36,865 nt of DNA. Source: Verrucomicrobiota bacterium (GTDB taxonomy: Bacteria > Verrucomicrobiota > Verrucomicrobiia > Chthoniobacterales > UBA10450). The notes under the pieces are model-generated. The model was not told the origin of the DNA. It did no database searches and was given only the letters and a program-made list of their open reading frames with translations. The DNA is taken from assembly GCA_003218415.1 (NCBI GenBank), contig QHNK01000059.1, positions 1-36,865 on the forward strand. The letters run 5' to 3'. The position numbers and the translations under genes were made by a program. Of this stretch, positions 27,597 to 28,522 are shown piece after piece (position 1 is the stretch's first letter; each line of letters opens with the position of its first letter).

Positions 27597-28166
27597 TTGA
27601 AAAAGATCGGCATTTACGGCGGCTCATTCGATCCCATTCATCACGGACATCTGATCTTGGCCCGGGAAGCGCGCGAGGCTTTGGATCTGGAGAAAGTAAT
27701 TTTTGTTCCTGCCGCGGTGTCGCCGTTTAAAGAGCGCGCCGCGGCAGCGAGCGGCGATATGCGATTAAAGATGTTGCAGGCCGCGATCGAAAGTGAAGAG
27801 GGATTTGCAATTGACGATTGCGAGCTGCGGCGGCCGCCGCCATCGTGGACCATCGATACGGTGTTGGAAATTCGGAAACGCGAGACCGACTCCGAGATTT
27901 ATCTCCTCATCGGCGAAGATAACGTGGCGGCGCTGGACCGTTGGCGGCGGTTCGACGAGTTAAAGAAAATGGTGCGCTTTGTGGTGCTTGATCGCACGGG
28001 CTCACAAACGCGACGCAATTACGAGGTCGTGCTCCGGAAGATCGACATCTCAGCCACGGACATCAGAAAGAGAGTTGCGCACGGACAATCGATTCGTTAT
28101 CTCGTACCGCCAGCCGTGGAAGAAATTATTGAGCGCGAACAACTTTATCGGGAGCAATCGAAATAA
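27597..28166 (+). CDS. nadD: Nicotinate-nucleotide adenylyltransferase
   Basis: Adds AMP to nicotinate mononucleotide in NAD synthesis. It has 189 residues. The nucleotidyltransferase motif is GIYGGSFDPIHHGHLILA (HxGH), followed by VIFVPAAVSPFK and the C-terminal ISATDIRKRV motif that binds ATP phosphates. The start is TTG 27597 (family start MKKIGIYGG). It overlaps the rsfS frame by four bases at its stop codon. The pair nadD-rsfS is a common conserved arrangement. Confidence 0.96.
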   Translation: MKKIGIYGGSFDPIHHGHLILAREAREALDLEKVIFVPAAVSPFKERAAAASGDMRLKMLQAAIESEEGFAIDDCELRRPPPSWTIDTVLEIRKRETDSEIYLLIGEDNVAALDRWRRFDELKKMVRFVVLDRTGSQTRRNYEVVLRKIDISATDIRKRVAHGQSIRYLVPPAVEEIIEREQLYREQSK

Positions 28167-28522
28167 CGCCAGAAACCCTAGCAAAGACTTGCGCAGAACT
28201 CGCCTCGAACAAAAAGGCCGAGGACATCGTTGTGCTGGACTTGCGCGATATCTCAACATTTACAGATTTTTTTGTGATCTGCTCCGGTACGTCTGAGCCT
28301 CAGCTGAAAGCGATTGCAAACGAAATCGAAACGCGCTTGCGCGAAGAACATTCGCTTCGACCAGTAGCGATCGACGGATTTCCTGCCAGCCAATGGATCG
28401 TGCTCGATTACCTGCAAGTGGTTGTCCACATTTTTCACCAAGACAAGCGCGCCTTCTACAGTTTGGAAGATTTATGGGGCGACGCGCCCCGGATAGAATG
28501 GGAAGCGGCAGCGGCACGATGA
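28163..28522 (+). CDS. rsfS: Ribosomal silencing factor RsfS, apparent AUA start
   Basis: Binds ribosomal protein uL14 and blocks subunit joining when nutrients are short. The conserved N-terminal part TPETLAKTCAELASNKKAED precedes VVLDLRDISTFTDFFVICSG and is open only back to a stop upstream of 28135. Between that stop and the conserved region there is no ATG, GTG or TTG in frame. The best start is ATA at 28163-28165, which overlaps the nadD TAA stop as ATAA and has GGGAG (28150-28154) eight bases upstream. A GTG at 28232 would remove 23 conserved residues. From ATA the protein has 119 residues, a normal length. Later motifs are AIDGFPASQWIVLDYLQVVV and FYSLEDLWGDAP. Confidence 0.88.
   Translation: MTPETLAKTCAELASNKKAEDIVVLDLRDISTFTDFFVICSGTSEPQLKAIANEIETRLREEHSLRPVAIDGFPASQWIVLDYLQVVVHIFHQDKRAFYSLEDLWGDAPRIEWEAAAAR

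Follow-up and report, generated by a model that had tools for sequence, protein, structure and literature searches.

A conserved ATA codon as the probable start of the ribosome silencing factor gene rsfS in a soil bacterium of the Verrucomicrobiota

The gene for the ribosome silencing factor, rsfS, of a soil bacterium is probably translated from an AUA codon at position 28163, a conserved initiator of the AUH class (AUA, AUU or AUC) that would keep RsfS scarce through discrimination by IF3; we hold this reading with fairly high confidence. The position of the codon, its conservation, the absence of an alternative start and the specificity of the pattern for this gene are plain from the DNA itself. 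The conservation goes far beyond chance. The low output of RsfS and the action of IF3 are drawn from better known systems.

The nadD-rsfS junction

The window, i.e. the whole stretch of 36,865 nucleotides that was analysed, carries nadD and rsfS as a two-gene cluster on the + strand. The features of the pair are as follows.

27597..28166, + strand: nadD (nicotinate-nucleotide adenylyltransferase), with a TTG start and a TAA stop at 28164-28166; matches PF01467 and NF000840 above cut-off
28150..28154, + strand: Shine-Dalgarno sequence GGGAG, within the nadD 3' end, 8 nt before ATA
28163..28165, + strand: ATA, the putative rsfS start codon
28163..28522, + strand: rsfS (ribosome silencing factor), with a TGA stop at 28520-28522 and a length of 119 residues when counted from ATA
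28164..28166, + strand: nadD stop TAA, overlapping the putative rsfS start (ATAA)
28179..28181, + strand: second stop in the nadD frame, TAG, conserved; the nadD stop in ATC relatives
28232..28234, + strand: GTG, first in-frame canonical start; rejected as the rsfS start

Read from ATA, the product is RsfS by its match to PF02410 (E 2.6e-33, 114.6 bits against a cut-off of 21.6) and to the NCBIfam equivalog TIGR00090 (E 5e-34, 116.4 bits against a cut-off of 56.9). By homology to the Staphylococcus aureus protein, it would be expected to bind uL14 and block the association of 50S and 30S subunits, as reported in PMC7125091.

After the TGA stop at 28130, the rsfS frame runs GCG CGA ACA ACT TTA TCG GGA GCA ATC GAA ATA ACG CCA GAA. 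A sequence-only reading had proposed that no ATG, GTG or TTG lies between this stop and the conserved region, and that GGGAG stands 8 nt before the ATA; reading of the codons bears out both, with no canonical codon before the GTG at 28232. The overlap of ATA with the nadD TAA, which it gave as three bases, is in fact two (28164-28165). The ATC at 28157, considered as a start of the AUH class, was set aside; its distance from GGGAG is only 2 nt, and relatives have not retained it.

Could translation begin at GTG 28232, or at another canonical codon downstream? This GTG is the first canonical in-frame codon of the window, but a start there would cost codons 1-23, as the sequence-only reading had also stated. 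These 23 residues are largely conserved within the taxonomic order, and some 15 positions at the front of PF02410 would be lost as well. In addition, ATG, GTG and TTG are all absent from the first 30 codons in 11 of the 52 loci L031-L082. A downstream start is thus highly improbable.

Conservation of the codon in close relatives

A protein search of the genome collection yielded 56 loci, and among the window's relatives 54 of 58 genomes had a match. At the homologous position the window and the 28 further distinct loci of the same genus all have ATA, and the comparison with relatives (29/29) hence upholds the AUA start proposed from the window. Among the 53 closest distinct homologues, whose median pairwise nucleotide identity is 0.755, the start column holds ATA in 48, ATC in three, ATT in two and ATG in none, i.e. 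ATH in 53/53. GGAG is invariant across 27 aligned nadD-rsfS junctions, and 48 of these 53 homologues have the nadD stop at offset +1. An ATG at the rsfS start would turn the nadD stop into TGA, which is still a stop.

A sequencing or assembly error, with G the true base at 28165, might be suspected in a draft assembly of 204 contigs. The same A, however, is present in 28/28 other distinct same-genus loci from separate genome assemblies. The check on relatives that had been suggested for such an error, a search for ATG in the start column, gave 0/53, and the error is ruled out, with a negligible chance left to it.

Is the missing G simply a matter of little divergence? At the third base, both A and G occur in each of the ten invariant Lys, Glu or Gln columns; this comparison used the 48 loci picked for having ATA, and for column 1 itself only the count over 53 loci is unbiased. 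Since A and G vary at all ten of these columns, the absence of G in the start codon is not slow drift. Nor is ATA a favoured isoleucine codon in the 48 loci, where it makes up 6 of 365 other Ile codons, the rest being mostly ATC or ATT. The region around the start shows no conserved RNA structure: the consensus has 7 weak pairs (-1.28 kcal/mol) and no pair with two-sided changes, and the single-sequence z-score is 0.71.

The nadD frame has a feature of its own. In all 48 ATA loci, it has one stop at +1, either TAA or TAG, and another, always TAG, at +16. The second stop is retained in 48/48 by way of the Leu codons TTA or CTA, otherwise a minority, and the third base of the rsfS Leu-6 codon is invariant in these loci. 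In three ATC relatives the TAG at +16 is the nadD stop. That it is kept in the 48 loci and used in the ATC relatives suggests that ATC with a longer nadD was ancestral, and that a C to A change might have created both the ATA and the new nadD stop.

Starts of rsfS and of control genes in other families

The wider survey comprises 226 distinct rsfS loci. Nearly all are from Verrucomicrobiota; the exceptions are three Acidimicrobiia and SAR116 loci and that of E. coli. rsfS was matched in 371 of 387 genomes, with coordinates for the best-scoring ones, and 147 of the 371 were read by this route (30 + 59 + 58 loci). Of 255 loci, 29 were removed because their core DNA duplicated that of another. 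The count of loci without a canonical start excludes ten in which the frame continues past the end of the available sequence. From the upstream stop through alignment column 7, 58 of the 226 loci have no canonical start. Column 1 is ATA in 38, ATC in 12 and ATT in seven of these; the 58th (L119) has ATT two codons before column 1. At other in-frame positions of the same loci, ATH is found in 22 of 676 cases. Shine-Dalgarno pairing at the start codon has a median of -6.6 kcal/mol, compared with a background of -2.2, and passes the background 10% point in 55/58. In three lineages a stop lies one or two codons upstream (G417, TGA TCC ATC; G176, TGA ACG ATT; G039, TAA CCC ACC ATA), so that almost no alternative start is left there. 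Non-standard rsfS starts are thus more widespread than the sequence-only reading supposed, with AUC and AUU in the same column in other families. ATG occupies this column in 21/226 loci, which belong to other families.

The loci without a canonical start span 15 family codes: f1, f3, f4, f5, f6 and f10 within the window's order, and f46, f49, f52, f55, f60, f68, f77, f80 and f83 outside its class. In the same class but outside the order, a canonical start is missing in 0/25 loci; the trait is patchy. A small sample of 18 named records, drawn from a plasmid collection, covers other phyla and E. coli; rsfS begins with ATG, GTG or TTG where it is annotated, and has a canonical candidate where it is not. 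How did this distribution arise? A tree of RsfS was built from 183 of the 226 rows, with most ATA rows thinned out and rows of less than 80 residues left out. It has 17 label changes, of which only four are forced by starred branches; the labels are conservative because incidental upstream codons were scored as canonical, and the columns are too few to decide gain versus loss. Patchy retention and repeated origin of AUH starts are both compatible with the tree of so short a protein.

In some other families the column-1 Ile is internal, a few codons after an ATG (e.g. L169, L270 and L299), and there it can be a sense residue too. In L169, L270, L289, L299 and similar loci the homologous Ile codon follows the ATG at a distance of two to six codons, and such loci may indicate how AUH and AUG starts replaced one another. 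Family f46, where column 1 is ATG in nine loci, ATT in L312 and ATC followed by ATG in L262, is a good place to study such a switch.

The overlap of nadD with rsfS, together with an rsfS frame devoid of a canonical start, also brings to mind a NadD-RsfS fusion made by ribosomal frameshifting or stop readthrough, with the Ile codon read as sense. In the wider set of rsfS loci without a canonical start, however, the nadD stop lies at +16, +8, +2, +1, -4, -6, -14, -15, -17, -30, -34 or -105 relative to column 1, in all three frames. By eye, the junctions have no shared slippery site and the codons upstream of column 1 are not conserved as protein. Because the frame relation of nadD to rsfS is variable, a general fusion is ruled out, and there is scarcely any likelihood of one here. 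Low RsfS levels and a dependence of rsfS on nadD translation, both considered in the sequence-only reading, are plausible, but the same spread, from +16 to -105 nt, and two loci with no detectable upstream nadD make a strict dependence on nadD unlikely as a general rule.

Control genes were read in the same set of genomes, 30 at most, the infC and rpsP starts being placed by profile coordinates. Of 28 rpsP loci, 27 have ATG and one is cut by a contig end (0/27 without a canonical start). A canonical start is present in 22/22 rbfA loci and in the 28/28 HPF loci examined; six further HPF matches are outside the count. As these three genes lack a canonical start in 0/77 loci together, the method itself does not generate non-canonical ones. 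In infC, the classic AUU-start gene, a canonical start is missing in 20/30 loci. The standouts among the five genes are thus the two that encode anti-association factors, rsfS and infC. G417 combines an AUC rsfS with a canonical infC candidate.

The infC starts differ among families. In the window's genus and family infC seems to be CTG-started (L227, from the window's own genome, G000:C188; L208, L219, L220 and L223-L226), and these frames open 8 codons before the domain with no ATG, GTG or TTG. In other families of the order, ATT, ATA or ATC is found nearby.

A weak start and the supply of RsfS

Does the AUA start have a role? It might be real but without regulatory function, a weak start that is tolerated where a good Shine-Dalgarno sequence and termination-reinitiation supply enough RsfS. 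The strong Shine-Dalgarno sequence and the stop overlap at the rsfS start fit this, as do weak rsfS starts elsewhere, UUG in E. coli (PMC10917681) and TTG in Listeria; polyamines are also reported to have no effect on E. coli rsfS translation (PMC10917681). But the third base is never G in the 53 close homologues, where a purine is free to vary at every comparable column, and AUH recurs in 15 families. Both suggest maintenance of the weak start, and mere tolerance is the less likely account, one to which we give a minor share of belief.

We therefore favour a regulatory start, by the following putative steps. The Shine-Dalgarno sequence in the nadD 3' end would set the 30S subunit on AUA, probably assisted by ribosomes that finish nadD at its overlapping UAA. 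The third base of AUA mismatches the initiator tRNA, and IF3 would destabilise the complex, so that the checkpoint at 50S joining lets only a fraction through. RsfS, itself a blocker of 50S subunit joining, would thereby stay scarce. IF3 is reported to discriminate against AUU, AUC and AUA twice, first on the 30S complex and later when the subunits associate (PMC4611024). For S. aureus, the conserved AUA and AUU starts that Ribo-Ret mapped are reported to yield about 10% of AUG output (PMC13009471). RsfS is described as an anti-association factor on uL14 that hinders 50S joining (PMC7125091).

The nearest likeness is infC (AUU, AUA or AUC), which, like rsfS, has a conserved AUH start after a Shine-Dalgarno sequence, encodes a subunit anti-association product and is non-canonical in the same genomes. 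The two differ in their target, 30S for IF3 and 50S for RsfS, and IF3 is the very factor that discriminates; in the window's genus, moreover, infC seems CTG-started and rsfS ATA-started. S. aureus ccpN (AUA) and cvfC1 (AUU) also have conserved AUH starts with an extended Shine-Dalgarno sequence, mapped by Ribo-Ret, that cut expression to about 10-30% of that with AUG (PMC13009471). In Streptomyces, the conserved non-canonical start of sigR, a gene in an operon, is repressed by IF3 and fixes how much of this stress protein is made, an example of a regulator whose dose can be set through IF3 by such a codon (PMC5472188). The S. aureus genes are other genes in another phylum, and sigR starts with GTC; they have been studied by experiment, including a test of IF3 repression in Streptomyces for sigR (PMC5472188), whereas the rsfS start is predicted from sequence. 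By analogy with these cases, AUA probably keeps RsfS low. The E. coli orthologue, ybeB, has a weak UUG start (PMC10917681), but UUG ends in G, is canonical and is not subject to IF3 discrimination (PMC4611024).

None of the listed papers that were examined reports an AUH start for rsfS, although a list by Gvozdjak and Samanta of genes with a preference for non-AUG starts (arXiv 2008.10758, cited in PMC9845219) may include it. In the literature searched, no paper brings AUA together with start codons and Verrucomicrobia, and none treats start codons in Udaeobacter.

Could RsfS also control its own synthesis? In an attractive but speculative feedback, more RsfS would slow 50S joining, near-cognate 30S complexes on AUH would dissociate before the 50S subunit arrives, and initiation at its own AUH codon would fall. 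We regard such autoregulation through the subunit-joining checkpoint as doubtful. If true, it would be the 50S counterpart of the autoregulation of IF3 at infC, with a shared kinetic sensor.

Few bacterial genes are known with AUA, AUU or AUC starts. Gene finders restricted to ATG, GTG and TTG would be expected to make the rsfS of this phylum too short or too long, or to overlook it. Judged by its codon, rsfS belongs with infC among the genes whose conserved start falls in the class disfavoured by IF3, and it would constitute a deeply conserved AUH case in the same genomes as infC, the products of the two being the 50S and 30S anti-association factors. This pairing leads to a testable proposal on how cells set ribosome silencing.
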